From assembly GCA_017161305.1 (NCBI GenBank), contig CP031518.1, positions 744,001-808,000 on the forward strand: a stretch of 64,000 nucleotides of DNA. Reading direction: 5' to 3'. Numbering within the stretch: the stretch's first letter is position 1; each line of letters starts with the position of its first letter. A program made the translations under genes and the position numbers. Shown piece after piece: positions 47,547 through 55,698 of the stretch. This DNA is from Treponema ruminis. GTDB taxonomy: Bacteria; Spirochaetota; Spirochaetia; Treponematales; Treponemataceae. Below the pieces are notes generated by a model. It searched no databases, had not been told where the DNA came from, and worked only from the letters and a program-made list of their open reading frames with translations.

Positions 47547-48917
47547 ATGAAGATTCACAAACTTGCCTTTCTTCCTCTGCTGATTTCTTCTATAAATTTA
47601 ATGATTTTCACTTCCTGCACATCATCAAAATCGACGGCCGCAGACCTAAATCCCCGCGTAATACTTGGCGACGAGCAGTTTGACCAGTACGGCCCTCTTT
47701 TAAAGGAAAGGCGGATAGCTCTTTTTTCAAATCATTCGGGCATCGTTGGTGACAAAATCATTCTTTCTGACGGAAGCGTTCAGTTCGGCGGCTTTACAAG
47801 TTCCGCTGATAAGGACCTTTCCCTCATTCCTTTTGGCAGGGACTTGGAAGGAAATCCCGTCACTTACGGAGAGCATATTCTTGATTTTCTTCTTTCCCAG
47901 AAAATTAAGGTTGAGGCGATATTCTGTCCTGAGCATGGTTTCCGGGGCACTGAAGATGCGGGCTCAGGCATTTATGACAGCCTTGACGAAAAGACCGGAA
48001 TCCCGATTCTTTCCCTTTACGAAAACGACAGCAGGCACACGATAAATCCAAAGAACATGGAAGTTTTTGACACCCTTGTAATAGACATTCAGGACGTCGG
48101 GCTGCGTTACTACACTTATTACATTACCCTCTATTATCTTATGGATGCATGTGCGAAAAATCAAAAGGAAGTCGTTATCCTTGACCGGCCCAATCCCAAC
48201 GGCTTTTATGTGGACGGTGAAATCCTAAAGGACGACTTTAAATCCGGGGTTGGCCGCCTTCCGATTCCGACCGTGCACGGCATGACTCTGGGTGAACTTG
48301 CCCAAATGATGAATGGCGAGGGCTGGTTTTCAGCCGGTAAAGATTCCTGCCGCCTTACGGTCATTCCCTGCAAAAATTACACACATCAGACAAAATACTC
48401 CCTTATCCGGGCTCCTTCTCCAAACATCAAGAATATGAGGGCCATATATCTCTACGCCTCAACTTGCTTTTTTGAAAACACGATTGTTTCCGTGGGCCGG
48501 GGCACTGATTTTCCATTTGAAGCCTACGGAAGTCCTTATTTTGATTCCCTTGACGGAGTGGATTTTTCTTTTGTTCCGAAATCCATGCCAGGAGCGGTAA
48601 ATCCGCCTTTTTTGGAGCAGACCTGCTTCGGAAAAGACCTTCGATCAAAGCCCCTCGAAGAAATCTTTCTTGCTGGTTGCGATCTTTCCTATCTTTGTGG
48701 CGCCTATCAAAAAGCAAAAGAAGCCGGAAAGGACTCAGAATTCTGGGGAAAAGTCCGTTTGCGAGAATACTATTGGATTGACCTCTTGAGCGGTTCGACA
48801 AAAGTCCGCGAGCAGCTTGAAGCCGGCCTTTCAGCAGATAAAATAAAGTCATTCTGGCAGACTGACATTACAAATTTCAAGAAACTTCGAAAGCCCTATC
48901 TCCTCTACAAAGACTAG
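47547..48917 (+). CDS. DUF1343 / NamZ-type exo-beta-N-acetylmuramidase lipoprotein (GH171)
   Basis: 456 residues. Signal peptide with lipobox TSCTS (Cys about residue 26). DUF1343 signatures: LFSNHSGIVG, EAIFCPEHGFRGTEDAG, IPILSLYEND, LVIDIQDVGLRYYTYYITL, ILDRPNPNGFYVDG, PTVHGMTLGELA and SVGRGTDFPFEAYGSP. The characterised member NamZ of Bacillus removes terminal MurNAc from peptidoglycan. Together with the GH3 enzyme 2 nt upstream it would degrade wall fragments alternately from the non-reducing end. Confidence 0.9.
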   Translation: MKIHKLAFLPLLISSINLMIFTSCTSSKSTAADLNPRVILGDEQFDQYGPLLKERRIALFSNHSGIVGDKIILSDGSVQFGGFTSSADKDLSLIPFGRDLEGNPVTYGEHILDFLLSQKIKVEAIFCPEHGFRGTEDAGSGIYDSLDEKTGIPILSLYENDSRHTINPKNMEVFDTLVIDIQDVGLRYYTYYITLYYLMDACAKNQKEVVILDRPNPNGFYVDGEILKDDFKSGVGRLPIPTVHGMTLGELAQMMNGEGWFSAGKDSCRLTVIPCKNYTHQTKYSLIRAPSPNIKNMRAIYLYASTCFFENTIVSVGRGTDFPFEAYGSPYFDSLDGVDFSFVPKSMPGAVNPPFLEQTCFGKDLRSKPLEEIFLAGCDLSYLCGAYQKAKEAGKDSEFWGKVRLREYYWIDLLSGSTKVREQLEAGLSADKIKSFWQTDITNFKKLRKPYLLYKD

Positions 48918-48971
48918 GGGGCTCCTGCAAATCCTTTATCGTAAATCTTTCCTCTTTTTTTTAAGCCTACC

Positions 48972-48999
48972 TTGAAAAAGTCTTTTTATAAGTTATAAT
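48972..48999 (+). promoter_or_regulatory. Promoter of the giant lipoprotein gene
   Basis: TTGAAA (48972-48977), 16 bp, TATAAT (48994-48999). Leader of about 17 nt with AGAGGAA before ATG 49023. Confidence 0.6.
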
Positions 49000-49022
49000 T
49001 AAGAATAGAGGAATCCCAAAAT

Positions 49023-52000
49023 ATGAAAAAGTCTTGCATCACTAAAAAAATTTTACGAACTTTCAAATCACTTCTTTGTTTTACTATACTGGGGGGGGGT
49101 ACTTTCTTCTCTTTTGTATCGTGTGAAAACTTCCTTGACAACGGCGACTTTAAGGAACAGCTCGATAAAGACATTGCCTACGCAAAGGCAAAGTCACTTT
49201 CAATAATCATTTCCCCTGAAGTAGGAACAGGAGCCTCGATTCCTGACGGCAAGTACACCGTAAAGCAGGGCTATCCCTTTGAAGTCAGCTTTACCGAAGC
49301 ATCCGGCTACAGTTTTGTAAAGTGGATTGCAGTCTCAAACGAAGATTCCAAAAAGGAAATAGAGGGCGTTGTCTTTGACAATGAGGCATCCCCAAAAACC
49401 ATGGCAACCGTCAACATTGATTCAGACGACGTGCGCATCCTGCCATTATGCTCTGACCGAATAGCCGTAGTGGGCGAGCCAAACCCGAAATACGAGGCCA
49501 ATGGCGTAAGCCGTGACCGCTCAATCACCGTGCAATTCTCAAAAAAGCCGGATCCAAAAAGCTTTATTTTCAGCAAGGGCGAAATCCCGGACGGGGCTGA
49601 AACCATAGCAAGCAAAAAGACTGATTCAGAGACAGGCGAAGAAACAGAAGAAATCTGGGCCTATGTCTATGAAAACCAGACCTTCCTCAAGAACATTTCA
49701 ATTACGAATGCGGACGGAATTTCCCTTGCCGAGCATTTCAACCAGCCGGTCCTCGAGGATAACCTTCTTACGGTTTCCGTGAACAAGTCAAAGCCCATTG
49801 AATTTGAAAGCGGAGTCGAAAAGAAAGCAGTCATTGTAACTCTTTCAACAGGAATTTGTGACCAGAATGGCGTAAGCATGAGCGCAGAAAAGACATGGAG
49901 ATACCAGATTACCGAGGCAACTGACGAAAAGGCCACGGTCAACATCTCATGCGAGGTGGCAGAAGGCTCCCTCCATCTTTCCGGCACCAAGGATTACAGC
50001 ATCGGTCAGAAAATCAACCTTTCCTTCACTGAAAATGCGGACTATCAGTTTGTAAGATGGGACTACGACAAATCAATTATTTATGTTGCAGATCAAAAGA
50101 GCAATTCGACCACGGCGACAGTCCTCGAAAAAACAGGCTCTACCGAACCAACCCAGATTAAGGCCCTATGTGCACCAAGACTGAGGGTTTCAGCCTTTTC
50201 TCCGATAAATGACAGCCTCAATCCAAGCGTAAGCAAAAACTCTTCTATAATTATAACATTTGACCAGAACCTGCCGGATGACGAGGAAGGACTTGCCCAG
50301 CTTGAAAACATCATGATTACACTCGGCGGCTCTCCTGTCCATGCAAGCTTCCTTGAGCCTGTCATCAGCGGAAATACCGTAACCTTTGCGGCCGATAAGT
50401 CAAACATGCTGGACGTAGCTTCTGGTCAGACAAAGAAAATTTCAGTAACGGTACCGACTGATTTTTATTATATTCTTGATGACGGCACAAAAGTCACCTA
50501 CGGCGGAATCGGAAAGACCTTCAACTATACGATTGACGAAACCACCATCGACAAGGCCGAAGTCACTTTCGCAGCGGCAAAGAATTCCGGTTCCCTGACA
50601 CCGGCTGCAGGCTCAGCAAACAAATATTCAGTAGGGCAGGAAGTTCCGATTTCCTTCGAACTTGCCCAGGGCTGGCAGTTCAACGGCTGGAGCGTAACTC
50701 TAGGAAACACTGAAGTAGGCGAGGATAAAATCAAGATTCTCGATAAGAAATCCCTCTCAACAAAACTCATCGTCAATGAAGCGGTGCAGGGCATAACGGT
50801 TACGGCAAAGGCAAGCGAAAGCCTTAAAGTCGCATCAACGACACCTGCCGAAAAGACAAATCCAAAAGACTCAGACATTACGATTACCTTCAACAAGCCG
50901 CTCGCTTCAGAATGTGAGGCGCTGCTCGATAAAATTAAGGTAACAATGGACGGATATAATGTTGATTCATTCTTTGATAATGAAAGCCGAACTTTGAGTG
51001 ATAAAACAATTATCCTTAAAAACACAAAGTATCTTGATCTATCAGCTTCTGATAAAAAAACAGTTACCGTAACTATTCCAGCTTCATTTTACTACAATGA
51101 CGGTACTGAAAAAGCCTATATGCAGGAAGATTATGTTTTTAATTATGAAATAACTTCTGAAACAACAGCGAAATCAGGAATTAAGTATAGTCTTTCATCA
51201 GAAAATGGCGGCAAAATCTTTATAAATCAGGAATCGGTTTACTTAGATAGAAATATAGACTATGACATAGGTTCTGTTCTTGATTTGGAACTTTCCATCT
51301 ATGATGGATATCAGTTCAATGGCTGGGAAATTTATGGTTCGGATGTTTATGACACTGACTTAAAAATTGCTGATAGAAAAGCTCTTTCAACGAAACTTTA
51401 TATTTACAAACCGGTTTCTTATGTTACGATTGCGGCAAGTATAAGTTTGAAGCCTGCTGTTCTTTCTGTTTCGCCTGGCGAAGGAACTCATACGGCAAAT
51501 ACTCCAGTCAAAGTGACGTTCAATATGCCGATGAATAAACAGAATGTTTTGGATAATCTTTTAATTCTTTATACTGATTCTGCTAAAAACAATAAGGATA
51601 TGAGTGAATATTTTGAAACTCCTTCTTTTGATTCTGCAGGAAAAATCCTTACACTCGTACCAAAAGCAAATGACCTCAAAAATTTCGCAAAAAACATGGC
51701 TTACATAGATATTAGCGTAAGTTTTGGCGATGGCGTAAAAGTTTCAAATCTTCCTCTTGTACAGAATTCAAAGTCAACTTTCAAAGTGCGCTATAAGCCA
51801 GAAGTGGAGAACACGGCACCAAAAAAATATGACTTCTTTGCAACCACCAAATATTCTGAAATATCAAAGGTTTCTGGAATTAAGGATACTGAAAAATTCT
51901 CATTAGACAGTCTGAATTCATTCTCAGATGATCAAATATTGCAGAACAGAACCCAGGGAACTGTATATATTTACGGACGCTATTTTGACGAGGAGAGTGG

Positions 52001-54254
52001 TGTTAAATTTGTAAATATTACCGAGCAGAGAACAAATGATAAGAAGGGTAGTGTCGTAAATGAAGACGTATCTGATGCAGTTCCTTATTCCGCTGATTCT
52101 CACGATGCCCAGTTTGTAAATGATGGAACTGGATATACAGATTTTAGAATTAAGTACGATATTCAGTCTGATGACGGTGCAATTCTTTTAACAGTTAATG
52201 TTGCTGATGCCTGTGGAAATACGGATGAAAGTGAGAATCAGACTGTAATAGCGATAAAAGACAGCTATATTGATTTGACAGATTTGAATGTTGAGAATAC
52301 GACTAATGACCTTACGACAATTTGGTTTACACAGATAGGACATCCTTTTGTGAATGATGCCCCATATGGGCGATGGATAAATTTAAAGAAAATTGTTTAT
52401 AGAAACTGCGAAATAGATTCATCTAAACTTACCGTAAACTGTGAATATATTGATGATGAAGGAACTGAACGAGTTGTAGATTTTGATTTTAACGATTCTT
52501 TCCAATATTATGATAATTATTATAAATCTGATAGAATAGACTATAAATGGAGTCTTGTGCTTGAAAATATTGAAGATGTCTCAAATAAGAGTTTTACTGT
52601 AAAAGTAACAGATGACATTGGAAATGTTTCTGCTAAAAAATTTACATTCCCACCGACACCCGTTTTGCTTAGTATTACTCCGTATTATTATAACGGAGCA
52701 CCATATAGCGGCTATGTAGACTTTACTTTTTCACATGACTACCTAAAAAATTCTTCTGAAACAGATAAATATCATTTTAGGCTTCTATACAATTATAACG
52801 ATAATGACCGGGATTCAGCTTACTCTGATTCATATATTCCATGTGAATTTGAACATATAGATTATCAGGTTCATATCACAAAAAGTACACGGTCCAATTC
52901 ATACGGATTAAACAGTAAGGGAATAAACTTTAAGTCCGAGCTTACAGATTCTGAATTAGAGCCTGTTGGAATTAAGTATATTGAATATAGTAAGTCAAGA
53001 GATGACTATGTAAAAATAACAGTTCATATTGATTATGATTCATGGAATAAATATGATTTAATATACATAGATGATAATTTATTCTTTGAATCTGGAACAT
53101 ATTCTTGTTCATACGAAGTGCTTACAAGATATCTTTATGATCCTGCTAAAATCGATTCATACGCAGCAAAAACGATTACTGGTGAAAAGGACGGAAAAAT
53201 TTCTCCAAGAACTAAACTGCCAATAACAGTTCCGAATTCAGATCTATATGACAATAGTAAACCTGTCTTTCTAGATTCTGTTGGAGGCCCAGATAATTAT
53301 GATTACTTTAATGTGATTAAAAATAAATTTGGAACTTCTACAGAAATTTTTGATTACATGCTTTTTGGATATTCGGTTAAAGATTATGAATCGGGAGTAA
53401 AAAAATGTATTTTACAGAATAATTCTGCAGAAAGCAGTTATGAACTCGACTCGAGCCTTTATGACGCATCAACTCATTATGTATATTTGCCAAGATGGGA
53501 TTTGGATGATAATGTTTCGTATGAACTAAAAGTCGTTGATAAAGCTGGAAACGAAAACAGCCATTCACCTGGTAGATATGCATTTATGGAAGTTCCGCCA
53601 GAGATTACAAGGTTTGATATTCTTTATATGGAGATGTCATATCCAAATACGAGTTATTCACAGGCGTATCGCTGGCAGTATTATTTATATAGTTTTGAAG
53701 ATTCTGATAGTGATGGAATAGGTACATGGGAGCAAAAGAAAGTAGGTGACTTAAAAGGTTATTATTCAACTCAATATTCTGCATATATGCCGTTGCAAAA
53801 CTGTGAGGCACAGGGATTTTATATGATGGTATGCTATGGCTTCTATCAAGCTTCATATGGAACTGATCACGGTCGTTATGATTTTTCGATTCCAAGATAT
53901 TATTACTATTACAAAGGTACTGACAACAAATATGTTCAAAACACTGGGAACTACGACCTTATTCTAGCAAACGGTTCATCAAAAGATTCCGTGGCAATTT
54001 CTTCTGATGCTCCTGTTTTTGTTCAGACACTCACAACAAAATACTCTTACGAAGAATGTAAGTCATGGGACATAAACAAATGGCAAAGAAACCGTCGTCA
54101 CATAGGCGAAAAAGTAATGTCATTTGATAGCACTGATCATGCTGCAAAAAAATACAAAATACCTGTAAACGAAATTGACGAAGGCGACTGTTATGTGGTT
54201 ATTGCACACTTCGCTGACGGAACATCTTCAATGAGCGAGGTAAAGCAAAAGTAA
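49023..54254 (+). CDS. Giant repeat-containing surface lipoprotein, probably phase-variable
   Basis: 1743 residues. Signal peptide with lipobox SFVSC (Cys 34). The first half has four units of about 190-220 residues (starting near 58, 305, 515 and 715), each with an InlB-B-repeat-like part (GQKINLSFTENADYQFVRWDY, GYQFNGW) followed by an SbsA-like Ig part (SSIIITFDQN, TPVKVTFNMPM). The second half (about 930-1740) is Tyr/Asp/Asn-rich and beta-predicted, with Ig-like VNVADACGNTDES and VVDKAGNENS elements. Likely exposed and host- or substrate-binding (inference). A G9 tract lies in the signal-peptide codons. Codon use turns strongly AT-rich from about 50.95 kb to 53.9 kb. Confidence 0.8.
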   Translation: MKKSCITKKILRTFKSLLCFTILGGGTFFSFVSCENFLDNGDFKEQLDKDIAYAKAKSLSIIISPEVGTGASIPDGKYTVKQGYPFEVSFTEASGYSFVKWIAVSNEDSKKEIEGVVFDNEASPKTMATVNIDSDDVRILPLCSDRIAVVGEPNPKYEANGVSRDRSITVQFSKKPDPKSFIFSKGEIPDGAETIASKKTDSETGEETEEIWAYVYENQTFLKNISITNADGISLAEHFNQPVLEDNLLTVSVNKSKPIEFESGVEKKAVIVTLSTGICDQNGVSMSAEKTWRYQITEATDEKATVNISCEVAEGSLHLSGTKDYSIGQKINLSFTENADYQFVRWDYDKSIIYVADQKSNSTTATVLEKTGSTEPTQIKALCAPRLRVSAFSPINDSLNPSVSKNSSIIITFDQNLPDDEEGLAQLENIMITLGGSPVHASFLEPVISGNTVTFAADKSNMLDVASGQTKKISVTVPTDFYYILDDGTKVTYGGIGKTFNYTIDETTIDKAEVTFAAAKNSGSLTPAAGSANKYSVGQEVPISFELAQGWQFNGWSVTLGNTEVGEDKIKILDKKSLSTKLIVNEAVQGITVTAKASESLKVASTTPAEKTNPKDSDITITFNKPLASECEALLDKIKVTMDGYNVDSFFDNESRTLSDKTIILKNTKYLDLSASDKKTVTVTIPASFYYNDGTEKAYMQEDYVFNYEITSETTAKSGIKYSLSSENGGKIFINQESVYLDRNIDYDIGSVLDLELSIYDGYQFNGWEIYGSDVYDTDLKIADRKALSTKLYIYKPVSYVTIAASISLKPAVLSVSPGEGTHTANTPVKVTFNMPMNKQNVLDNLLILYTDSAKNNKDMSEYFETPSFDSAGKILTLVPKANDLKNFAKNMAYIDISVSFGDGVKVSNLPLVQNSKSTFKVRYKPEVENTAPKKYDFFATTKYSEISKVSGIKDTEKFSLDSLNSFSDDQILQNRTQGTVYIYGRYFDEESGVKFVNITEQRTNDKKGSVVNEDVSDAVPYSADSHDAQFVNDGTGYTDFRIKYDIQSDDGAILLTVNVADACGNTDESENQTVIAIKDSYIDLTDLNVENTTNDLTTIWFTQIGHPFVNDAPYGRWINLKKIVYRNCEIDSSKLTVNCEYIDDEGTERVVDFDFNDSFQYYDNYYKSDRIDYKWSLVLENIEDVSNKSFTVKVTDDIGNVSAKKFTFPPTPVLLSITPYYYNGAPYSGYVDFTFSHDYLKNSSETDKYHFRLLYNYNDNDRDSAYSDSYIPCEFEHIDYQVHITKSTRSNSYGLNSKGINFKSELTDSELEPVGIKYIEYSKSRDDYVKITVHIDYDSWNKYDLIYIDDNLFFESGTYSCSYEVLTRYLYDPAKIDSYAAKTITGEKDGKISPRTKLPITVPNSDLYDNSKPVFLDSVGGPDNYDYFNVIKNKFGTSTEIFDYMLFGYSVKDYESGVKKCILQNNSAESSYELDSSLYDASTHYVYLPRWDLDDNVSYELKVVDKAGNENSHSPGRYAFMEVPPEITRFDILYMEMSYPNTSYSQAYRWQYYLYSFEDSDSDGIGTWEQKKVGDLKGYYSTQYSAYMPLQNCEAQGFYMMVCYGFYQASYGTDHGRYDFSIPRYYYYYKGTDNKYVQNTGNYDLILANGSSKDSVAISSDAPVFVQTLTTKYSYEECKSWDINKWQRNRRHIGEKVMSFDSTDHAAKKYKIPVNEIDEGDCYVVIAHFADGTSSMSEVKQK
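49091..49099 (+). repeat. G9 homopolymer in the lipoprotein signal-peptide codons
   Basis: Nine consecutive G encode part of Leu23 and Gly24-Gly26. With nine G the long frame is open. Adding one G brings a TGA after about a dozen codons (YFLLFCIV then stop); removing one brings a TAA some 35 codons later. Slippage here would switch the protein off. Confidence 0.85.
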
Positions 54255-54258
54255 AAAC

Positions 54259-54560
54259 TTATCTGGCAACCGGAATTTCAAGCTTTCTGATTTCAATTCT
54301 TCCTTAATTGCCAGCACCTGCTCCAGCGGCAGAGAGCAACCTTCCGCAATTGTTTCTGGCGCTACACCAAGTTTTAGCAAGTTCTTCGCATTTTCGATGG
54401 AAGCTGCTTCTTTACCTGCGTCAAAATCATAAGCCCTCTGTCGTTCCCATGTCATATACTGAAATCTCCATTGACATTATGGCGGGCGTCAATTACATAG
54501 TCTTCAAGTTCCTTTGTGTAGTTTGACTTAGCCGTACTCGATGCAGATATTCTCAAACGT
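54259..54560 (-). pseudogene. Decayed C-terminal remnant of an Rpn/PD-(D/E)XK transposase-like nuclease gene
   Basis: This fills most of the 445-base stretch between the giant lipoprotein gene and fba. On the minus strand, three fragments join only across frameshifts: SNYTKELEDYVIDARHN, then WRFQYMTWERQRAYDFDAGK with IENAKNLLKLGVAPETIAEGCSLPLEQVLAIKEEL, then EIRKLEIPVAR and stop. The breaks are near 54470 and near 54285. YMTWERQRAYDF and the final LEQVLAIKEEL type helix are typical of the C-terminus of Rpn family recombination-promoting nucleases. The N-terminal catalytic part is absent. Bases 54561-54620 hold nothing I can identify. Confidence 0.65.
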
Positions 54561-54623
54561 ACAGACGATAATAGCGCGAGCGTTCCAGCAATGCAAATGG
54601 CAAAAAGTCAGAAAATTACAAAA

Positions 54624-54668
54624 AAAATGCCCGGTAATTCAGAATTTCTTCTGTTTACCGGGCATTTT
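54624..54668 (-). terminator. Intrinsic terminator of fba (symmetrical)
   Basis: AAAATGCCCGGTAA (54624-54637) pairs with TTACCGGGCATTTT (54655-54668), a perfect 14-bp stem. On the minus strand the 3' arm is followed by a run of T (the A-run 54621-54627 on the plus strand). It lies 31 nt after the fba stop and could also stop + strand transcripts. Confidence 0.85.
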
Positions 54669-54699
54669 CGTCATTGCAATTATTTATTGCGGTTTATGA

Positions 54700-55698
54700 C
54701 TAGTCCAATGCGTGTCCTGCTGAACCGAGAACTTCAACACATTTGTGCATGTACATCTTTTTGAGCTCTTCGCGAGCTGGTGTGAGGTACTGGCGTGGGT
54801 CGAAGTCGCCTGGGTGCTCTGCAAAGTGCTTGCGGATAGCTGCTGTCATAGCGAGGCGGCCGTCTGAGTCGATGTTGATTTTGCAAACTGCTGATTTTGC
54901 AGCCTTGCGGAGCTGTTCCTCTGGGATACCAACTGAGTCAGGGATTTTTCCACCGAACTGCTCGATGATTTTTACGTACTCTACTGGAACTGATGAAGAA
55001 CCATGGAGAACGATTGGGAATCCAGGAAGCTGTTTTTCGATTGCTTCGAGAACGTCGAATGCCAATGGTGGTGGAATGAGAACGCCGTCAGGAGTGCGTG
55101 TACACTGCGCTGGTGTGAACTTACAGCGTCCGTGTGATGTACCGATAGAAATTGCGAGTGAGTCACATCCTGTTTTTGATGTGAAGTCAACAACTTCCTC
55201 TGGTTTTGTGTATTTTGACTCTTCTGCAGCAACGTCATCCTCAACGCCACCGAGAACGCCAAGCTCTGCCTCAACTGTTACGTCGTGAGCGTGAGCGTAT
55301 TCAACTACTTTTTTTGTGAGTGCAACGTTCTCATCGTATGGAAGGGCAGAACCATCAATCATTACTGAAGAGAAACCGTTGTCGATACAGTCTTTAGCAA
55401 CTTCAAAGTTTGGACCGTGGTCAAGGTGAAGAACGATTGGAATATCGCATCCAAGTTCGTGAGCGTACTCAACAGCGCCGCGAGCCATGTTGCGGAGGAT
55501 GTTAGCGTTTGCGTAAGCGCGAGCGCCTTTTGATACCTGAAGAATTACAGGTGATTTAACCTCAACACAAGCCATGATGATAGCCTGCATCTGCTCCATA
55601 TTGTTGAAGTTGAATGCTGGGATAGCATATCCGCCTTTCATTGCTTTTGCGAACATATCTTTTGTGTTCACCAAGCCAAGTTCTTTGTAGCTAGTCAT
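54700..55698 (-). CDS. fba: Fructose-bisphosphate aldolase, class II
   Basis: 332 residues. Zn-dependent cleavage of fructose 1,6-bisphosphate to DHAP and glyceraldehyde 3-phosphate in glycolysis. Features: AIPAFNFNNMEQMQAI, LHLDHGPNFEVAKDCIDNGFSSVMIDGS with metal His and catalytic Asp, VEAELGVLGGVEDDV, AISIGTSHGRCKF and IVLHGSSSVP, ending with KINIDSDGRLAMTAAIR. TAGGAG precedes ATG 55698. The flaA pair diverges from it, an arrangement I recall as conserved in treponemes. Confidence 0.97.
   Translation of the reverse strand: MTSYKELGLVNTKDMFAKAMKGGYAIPAFNFNNMEQMQAIIMACVEVKSPVILQVSKGARAYANANILRNMARGAVEYAHELGCDIPIVLHLDHGPNFEVAKDCIDNGFSSVMIDGSALPYDENVALTKKVVEYAHAHDVTVEAELGVLGGVEDDVAAEESKYTKPEEVVDFTSKTGCDSLAISIGTSHGRCKFTPAQCTRTPDGVLIPPPLAFDVLEAIEKQLPGFPIVLHGSSSVPVEYVKIIEQFGGKIPDSVGIPEEQLRKAAKSAVCKINIDSDGRLAMTAAIRKHFAEHPGDFDPRQYLTPAREELKKMYMHKCVEVLGSAGHALD

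Follow-up and report, generated by a model that had tools for sequence, protein, structure and literature searches.

The pilC genes of Neisseria are a known example of a genic poly-G switch, with tracts of 9 to 20 Gs (PMC5953494). In Treponema pallidum, 17 poly-G tracts were analysed, of which 76% were clearly variable; the lengths vary within isolates (7–11 Gs at tprL), and the tracts discussed in that study act in promoters (PMC7864442). For the variable surface lipoproteins of Mycoplasma, combinatorial lipoprotein variation is cited in a review (PMC11868660). Treponema ruminis Ru1T is, by its taxonomy, a commensal of the cow rumen, and the genome of the type strain (DSM 103462T, Ru1T, CP031518) comprises 2,895,582 bp with 44.6% GC (Table 1 of PMC8049484). 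T. ruminis has fewer homopolymeric tracts than any other treponeme compared in that paper, in which slipped-strand mispairing is mentioned for the syphilis treponemes; its available text contains neither "phase variation" nor "phase variable". Poly-G switching in treponemes is known from the syphilis spirochete, in the cases considered here from promoters; the tracts described here are candidates for translational switches in the signal peptides of predicted lipoproteins. Among the matches listed for the open-access literature, no description of this lipoprotein family, or of the DNA box treated below, was found in titles and beginnings of abstracts.

The window, i.e. the whole stretch of DNA analysed here, comprises 64,000 nucleotides (C1:744001–808000) of the 2,895,582-bp single-contig genome of T. 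ruminis and has a GC content of 38–47% in blocks of 4 kb. A large open reading frame in this window contains a tract of nine Gs close to its start. The features needed for the argument are the following:

48918–54691 (no strand): accessory segment; the flanking genes are adjacent in both relatives compared (L160, L161)
48972–48999 (+): sigma-70-like promoter TTGAAA-16-TATAAT, 11 of 12 consensus positions; a consensus match, not a mapped start, upstream of the tract and apart from it
49023–54254 (+): predicted surface lipoprotein of 1743 amino acids, in frame (ON) as assembled; from the open reading frame and Pfam
49023–49124 (+): signal peptide with the lipobox FVSC, Cys34 at 49122–49124; read by eye from the translation
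49083–49090 (+): ACTATACT box, abutting the G9 tract upstream; common to many tract-bearing homologues in the genus
49091–49099 (+): G9 tract, proposed slipped-strand switch, in codons 23–26 (CTG GGG GGG GGT) of the signal peptide
49124–49126 (+): TGA reached upon gain of one G, by frame reading; overlaps the Cys34 codon
49204–49206 (+): TAA reached upon loss of one G, by frame reading; about 27 codons beyond Cys34

The deduced protein starts with MKKSCITKKILRTFKSLLCFTILGGGTFFSFVSC-ENFLD and showed matches to Big_5 (Ig-like) and Flg_new_2 (divergent InlB B-repeat) above the Pfam cut-offs. Its signal peptide and lipobox were judged by eye; the homologues of the family also show a signal peptide ending in a lipobox. 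The NCBIfam search of the protein region revealed a sub-threshold repeat model and nothing more, and the Rfam scan of positions 48000–55000 gave no match at the gathering threshold. In L160 (G177) and L161 (G066), where the segment is absent, 165 and 68 nt, respectively, separate the aligned blocks. Since the flanking genes adjoin in both relatives, the gene represents an accessory insertion at 48918–54691. A close orthologue was not found among 196 genomes of the genus, in which the best other DNA match across the tract (69% identity) was of the paralogue type. A protein search of the genome contigs likewise gave no relative, and records of or near the window's own genome may be excluded from this search.

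The tract is located 68 nt downstream of the ATG (49023); in the family this distance mostly amounts to 35–90 nt. With nine Gs it is a homopolymer of slippable length (about eight or more) within a reading frame, and a change by one G in either direction leads to a premature stop. The earlier note had placed a G9 tract in the signal-peptide codons of a 1743-residue lipoprotein and had predicted early stops around the lipobox in both shifted frames. The sequence and the open reading frame confirm both points, one stop overlapping the Cys codon and the other following about 27 codons past it. Slipped-strand mispairing during replication would be expected to alter the number of Gs. One length class modulo 3 would join the ATG to the long frame, and the other lengths would stop at or shortly after the lipobox, so that single cells of T. 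ruminis would either make or lack the large predicted surface lipoprotein. The G9 tract is very probably such an on/off switch, since in related species the runs of related genes differ in length and most of these copies are out of frame. To its interpretation as a contingency locus, i.e. ON/OFF translational phase variation of the predicted lipoprotein, we assign a probability of roughly 0.87. Slippage within populations, its reversibility, the exposure of the protein at the surface and a benefit of switching are what we infer from this; the benefit may consist in evading phage, protozoa or host antibody, or in varying attachment.

A protein search of 200 genomes of the genus gave matches in at least 50, with a maximum of two candidates scored per genome, and the N-terminal DNA of 53 homologues chosen by protein was examined. 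Homologues with at least seven Gs (n = 17, including L033 with G8, OFF) comprised 5 ON and 12 OFF copies, and those with five or six Gs (n = 5) comprised 3 ON and 2 OFF. Among the 31 with four Gs or fewer, 30 were ON, none was OFF and one had no recognisable start. The tract-bearing homologues in the genus carry 7–11 Gs at the same place, and about one third are in frame and two thirds out. When all loci were pooled, an automatic rule detected 59 distinct tracts of at least seven Gs before a lipobox (19 ON, 38 OFF, 2 unresolved). Without six that were unconvincing by eye (L013, L110, L118, L213, L280 and the second of L100), 19 ON and 34 OFF were obtained (n = 53), and with a stricter filter 17 ON and 26 OFF (n = 43). 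These pooled sites were partly selected by the box or by the G run, not by frame. The ratio of ON to OFF among tract-bearing copies is near 1:2, about as free length drift predicts.

Long homopolymers can provoke polymerase slippage. This, together with the open frames kept in OFF copies, would also be in agreement with RNA or ribosome slippage at the G run, by which a steady fraction would shift the frame and OFF genes would still give some protein; the tract would then be a dial and not a heritable switch. Such slippage is improbable here, since programmed slippage favours one length, whereas lengths of 7–11 in near-random phase were seen, as genomic slippage predicts.

Tract lengths taken from metagenome assemblies may be erroneous. 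All 22 named contigs with the ACTATACT box in front of a tract are metagenome assemblies, and stretches of N occur near the tract at a few sites. However, if the tract lengths and especially the OFF states were sequencing or assembly errors, the tract-less homologues, which come from assemblies of the same kinds, should not be in frame in 30 of 31 cases. In addition, the pooled states lie near 1:2 with lengths spread over 7–11, and the box occurs beside G runs of varied length. We regard such errors as extremely unlikely to account for the data.

Some further loci were observed in this survey. In L216 (G154:C136), a further predicted lipoprotein has G11 within its signal peptide; it is out of frame with the ATG and the tract is followed by ATATAGTATAAT. 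In L213 (G154:C101), an out-of-frame G10 is located in what appears to be the conserved N-terminus of a family-1 beta-glucosidase, as judged by eye, which is either an error or a switched metabolic enzyme. L332 (G079:C13) and L335 (G079:C18) of one assembly possess identical flanks with 11 and 12 Gs, respectively, and may represent length variants of a single locus or else a repeat.

A paralogue of the gene is present in T. ruminis, with an open frame of 2225 codons, 56% identity over residues 1–880 and a G9 tract at the same place, ON. The counterpart of this paralogue in G154 (contig 98) was aligned over 3341 bp with 142 substitutions and one gap. This sole gap lies in the tract, which has nine Gs in the T. 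ruminis paralogue and eight in G154, and the G8 puts the G154 counterpart out of frame (OFF). ON and OFF lengths are found at homologous tracts both in this pair and among the 5 ON and 12 OFF homologues. Uniformity of the tract in relatives, which by the earlier note would speak against a switch, was examined for the paralogue and the wider family, and the lengths differ in both (9 versus 8; 7–11). The ON/OFF phase variation that the note had considered probable gains support from the indel in the paralogue tract, from homologues with 7–11 Gs of which about one third are in frame, and from the in-frame state of the tract-less ones.

It has to be considered whether the G9 is a chance homopolymer which the signal peptide tolerates as Gly-Gly-Gly and which is stable in practice, the OFF homologues being dying pseudogenes. 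GGG codons suit a signal peptide, in which residues have to be small or hydrophobic. When a first-order Markov model was fitted to the window, about 6.3 G/C runs of at least nine were expected genome-wide, and six were observed; the length of the G9 alone is therefore unexceptional. Runs of at least seven, however, are strongly depleted (15 observed versus about 126 expected by the model). In the whole genome, the counts at lengths 7, 8, 9 and 10 are 5, 4, 5 and 1, a flat tail without decay. Because of this depletion and these counts, the run-length profile looks as if a purged background were mixed with a small retained set. Nine of the 15 runs are on the plus strand and six on the minus strand, which equals the 9 G and 6 C tracts given in PMC8049484. 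The in-frame state of 30 of the 31 tract-less homologues, in comparison to 5 ON and 12 OFF with a tract, also speaks against chance, as does the tract being the only place with an indel in the near-identical paralogue loci. The same is true for the downstream frames of OFF copies, which are open for up to 1733 codons from the Cys; as the lipobox rule itself requires 80–90 open codons, they count as evidence solely beyond that length. A tolerated chance run is thus very unlikely.

Besides the tract in the window, the genome of T. ruminis contains the following tracts of at least nine Gs:

1805119–1805127 (contig C1): G9 in the signal peptide of the paralogue, ON
1532340–1532348 (−): G9 (L005) within the first part of the signal peptide of a predicted lipoprotein not related to this gene, OFF; the frame of the ATG terminates directly behind the tract
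2380938–2380946 (−): G9 (L007) in the 19-nt spacer between a perfect TTGACA and TATAAT, before a predicted lipoprotein gene
1391733–1391741: G9 in an acyltransferase-like membrane protein; function read from the translation
554787–554796 (−): G10 (L001) at the 3' end of a LuxR-type open reading frame; function read from the translation

Three of the six tracts are located within signal-peptide codons of predicted lipoproteins and one in the promoter spacer before another, L007, which is a candidate for a promoter-spacer switch. This placement at lipoprotein genes looks unlikely by chance. The G9 gene is among a few candidate switches of this genome, and it belongs to a family of predicted lipoprotein genes in the genus, in which many members have the same built-in tract. 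Cells with different mixtures of large surface proteins would result from translational switching, with the promoter-spacer type contributing at a few further genes. At L001, GTATAGT occurs 5 nt beyond the G10, and a change in tract length would swap the C-terminal tail of the LuxR-type regulator.

The presence of a box beside the tracts is a finding beyond the earlier note. ACTATAC is the reverse complement of GTATAGT, so that the box faces the tract whether it is located before or after the G run. The left-hand pattern, ACTATACT-N(0-12)-G7, gave matches in 23 of 196 genomes of the genus and its reversed control in none. The right-hand pattern, G8-N(0-12)-GTATAGT, was matched in 55 of the 196, with 149 overlapping matches versus 13 for the reversed control. 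Across a sample of the family, 19 of the 71 genomes from this genus showed the right-hand pattern and none of the 74 genomes from 19 other genera did, an absence that may partly reflect fewer G8 runs there; in these other genera the reversed control matched in one genome (G263) and the box in none. The 22 named stretches with a longer left-box pattern are all titled Treponema or Spirochaetaceae MAGs. Four of the titles give a source animal, two of them water buffalo, one water deer and one goat, and all four samples are from rumen or omasum. Several contigs of G166 gave 25 overlapping matches to G8-N-GTATAGT; among those listed, many share the spacer TACAACA, which suggests a repeated element or a multigene promoter family.

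Box sites were detected in signal peptides of unrelated predicted lipoproteins (L236–L239, L242, L249), in a glycosyltransferase-like N-terminus (L222, by eye) and in promoter-like sequences of the form TTGACA-N9/10-G9/10-TANNNT-(T)GTATAGT (L224, L225, L230). For comparison, 92 tracts of at least nine Gs which had not been selected by the box were collected from 13 of 14 genomes (T. ruminis, G154 and 12 more; G004 has no G9). Very few tracts of G198 and G191 entered this sample and only a part of those of G079, of which one listed place was left out, and L335 was dropped because of flanks identical to L332. The box was present within 20 nt and in the expected orientation at 14 of these 92 tracts (background 0.8%) and in the opposite orientation at 2 of 92. 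An unsupervised count of 6-mers revealed TTGACA as the top word on the left (12 versus 0.88 expected) and TATAGT on the right (12 versus 0.53). In single genomes the box accompanied 1 of 8 (G007), 0 of 9 (G012) and 0 of 16 (G015) of such tracts. The box is strongly enriched at G tracts, yet it is present at a minority of the long ones.

Among the homologues, the box was found in 13 of 16 with a tract versus 4 of 32 without (Fisher, 4.9e-6), L033 with its G8 being counted as tract-less. The codon ATA accounted for 16 of 35 Ile codons in tract-bearing signal peptides. In tract-less signal peptides its share was 12 of 67 (p 0.005) and in the mature parts of the proteins 496 of 1931 (p 0.011), each in comparison to the tract-bearing signal peptides. 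Into these ATA counts 52 of the 53 homologues were entered (L033 out), 16 with and 31 without a tract were scored, and copies with G5–6 were excluded. GTATAGT was found in one codon phase at 11 of 13 scored sites, mostly as TGT ATA GT (C I V). L237 and L280 showed another phase, the latter being unconvincing as a lipoprotein, and L242 and L249 read TAT AGT by eye. The reading-frame phase was considered as a proof of constraint at the DNA level and was found weak for this purpose, as 11 of 13 sites share one phase.

The case for a role at the DNA level rests on the sites in promoters and outside the family, on the association of box and tract and, modestly, on the use of ATA. We conclude that the box is apparently in part related to promoters and in part something else acting at the DNA level. 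It is possible, although rather doubtful, that it represents a dedicated cis-element of the poly-G switch class in this Treponema genus, located beside runs in unrelated lipoprotein signal peptides and promoters. It would then be recognised by a cellular factor, or form a DNA structure, and in this way preserve the G run or determine how fast it slips. If this was true, poly-G switches would be a marked class and not scattered accidents.

Alternatively, tract and ACTATACT box might primarily be a promoter here, with TATACT as −10 and TTCAAA 17 nt upstream, which would vary transcription as in the tpr genes of T. pallidum. In the promoter scan, TTCAAA-17-TATACT (9/12) indeed ends right at the G9 tract. 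Poly-G within promoter-like sequence is known in the genus from L224, L225 and L230, and TTGACA stands left of 12 of the 92 tracts where 0.88 would be expected. With the box on the right, TTGAC precedes the tract by no more than 18 nt at 7 of 48 sites. An enrichment of −35 elements was sought at 50 sites with the left box, where the score was no better than background, and the left box as a −10 element was rejected for this reason. Moreover, a better match for the gene is available at 48972–48999 (11/12). In the T. pallidum type the tract lies in the promoter before the start codon; here it follows the start codon by 68 nt, and the tracts at the other lipoprotein sites also follow theirs. It is therefore highly improbable that the tract is primarily a promoter element. 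The location 68 nt inside the open reading frame and the separate promoter match are in accordance with the translational switch that the earlier note had preferred. Its statement that poly-G tracts of T. pallidum are mostly found in promoters agrees with PMC7864442, and the promoter type also occurs in T. ruminis (L007) and in relatives.

The lipobox FVSC with Cys34 was read by eye at the end of the signal peptide, as in bacterial lipoproteins; a type II signal peptidase, which the host genome of a lipoprotein should encode, was not detected in this assembly. The search for the family PF01252 (signal peptidase II) in the T. ruminis assembly (G000; single contig, completeness score 81%) gave no match, in agreement with PMC8049484, which reports no signal peptidase 2 in bovine gut treponemes. 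Of 59 genomes from the genus, 51 contain PF01252, among them 29 of 29 well-completed ones; it was also identified in G154, and it was missed in 8 of 59, including G000. Because of the completeness score, a missing stretch is possible. As the family was not found in the assembly, processing as a lipoprotein is not assured, and if signal peptidase II is truly absent, the 1743-residue protein would probably keep its signal peptide.

At least four of the six long G tracts of T. ruminis are placed as switches of predicted lipoprotein genes; the low number of tracts in this organism has been stressed before (PMC8049484). With a harmless, cultivable rumen treponeme and many relatives that carry candidate translational switches in signal peptides, an easily handled organism would be available for work on treponemal phase variation. 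As a conserved box accompanies some of the tracts, in coding as well as in promoter contexts, it becomes a testable question whether local DNA signals set the slippage rate.

The product of pilC is an exported surface protein whose signal-peptide codons presumably contain the tract, and no conserved DNA box is known around this tract. Like the G9 gene, pilC carries its poly-G inside the reading frame, and its phase-variable alleles are confined to the pathogenic species of Neisseria (PMC5953494). PilC differs from the T. ruminis protein in that it is not a lipoprotein of that family. In T. pallidum, the tract of tp0126 lies in the spacer between −35 and −10, like that of L007 in T. ruminis (TTGACA-19-TATAAT), and the tracts of tprE/G/J, tprL and tp0126 act in promoters, whereas the G9 lies inside signal-peptide codons (PMC7864442). 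The right-hand box pattern further distinguishes this genus from the 19 other genera of the family whose 74 genomes lack it, T. pallidum not necessarily being among them. Switching of the mycoplasma Vlp proteins involves poly-A tracts in promoters. The Vlp proteins and their relatives resemble the T. ruminis candidates in that several phase-variable surface lipoproteins occur per cell. The mycoplasma case described first was later shown to be due to site-specific recombination (PMC11868660), in contrast to the candidates of T. ruminis, in which the poly-G lies in the signal-peptide codons.
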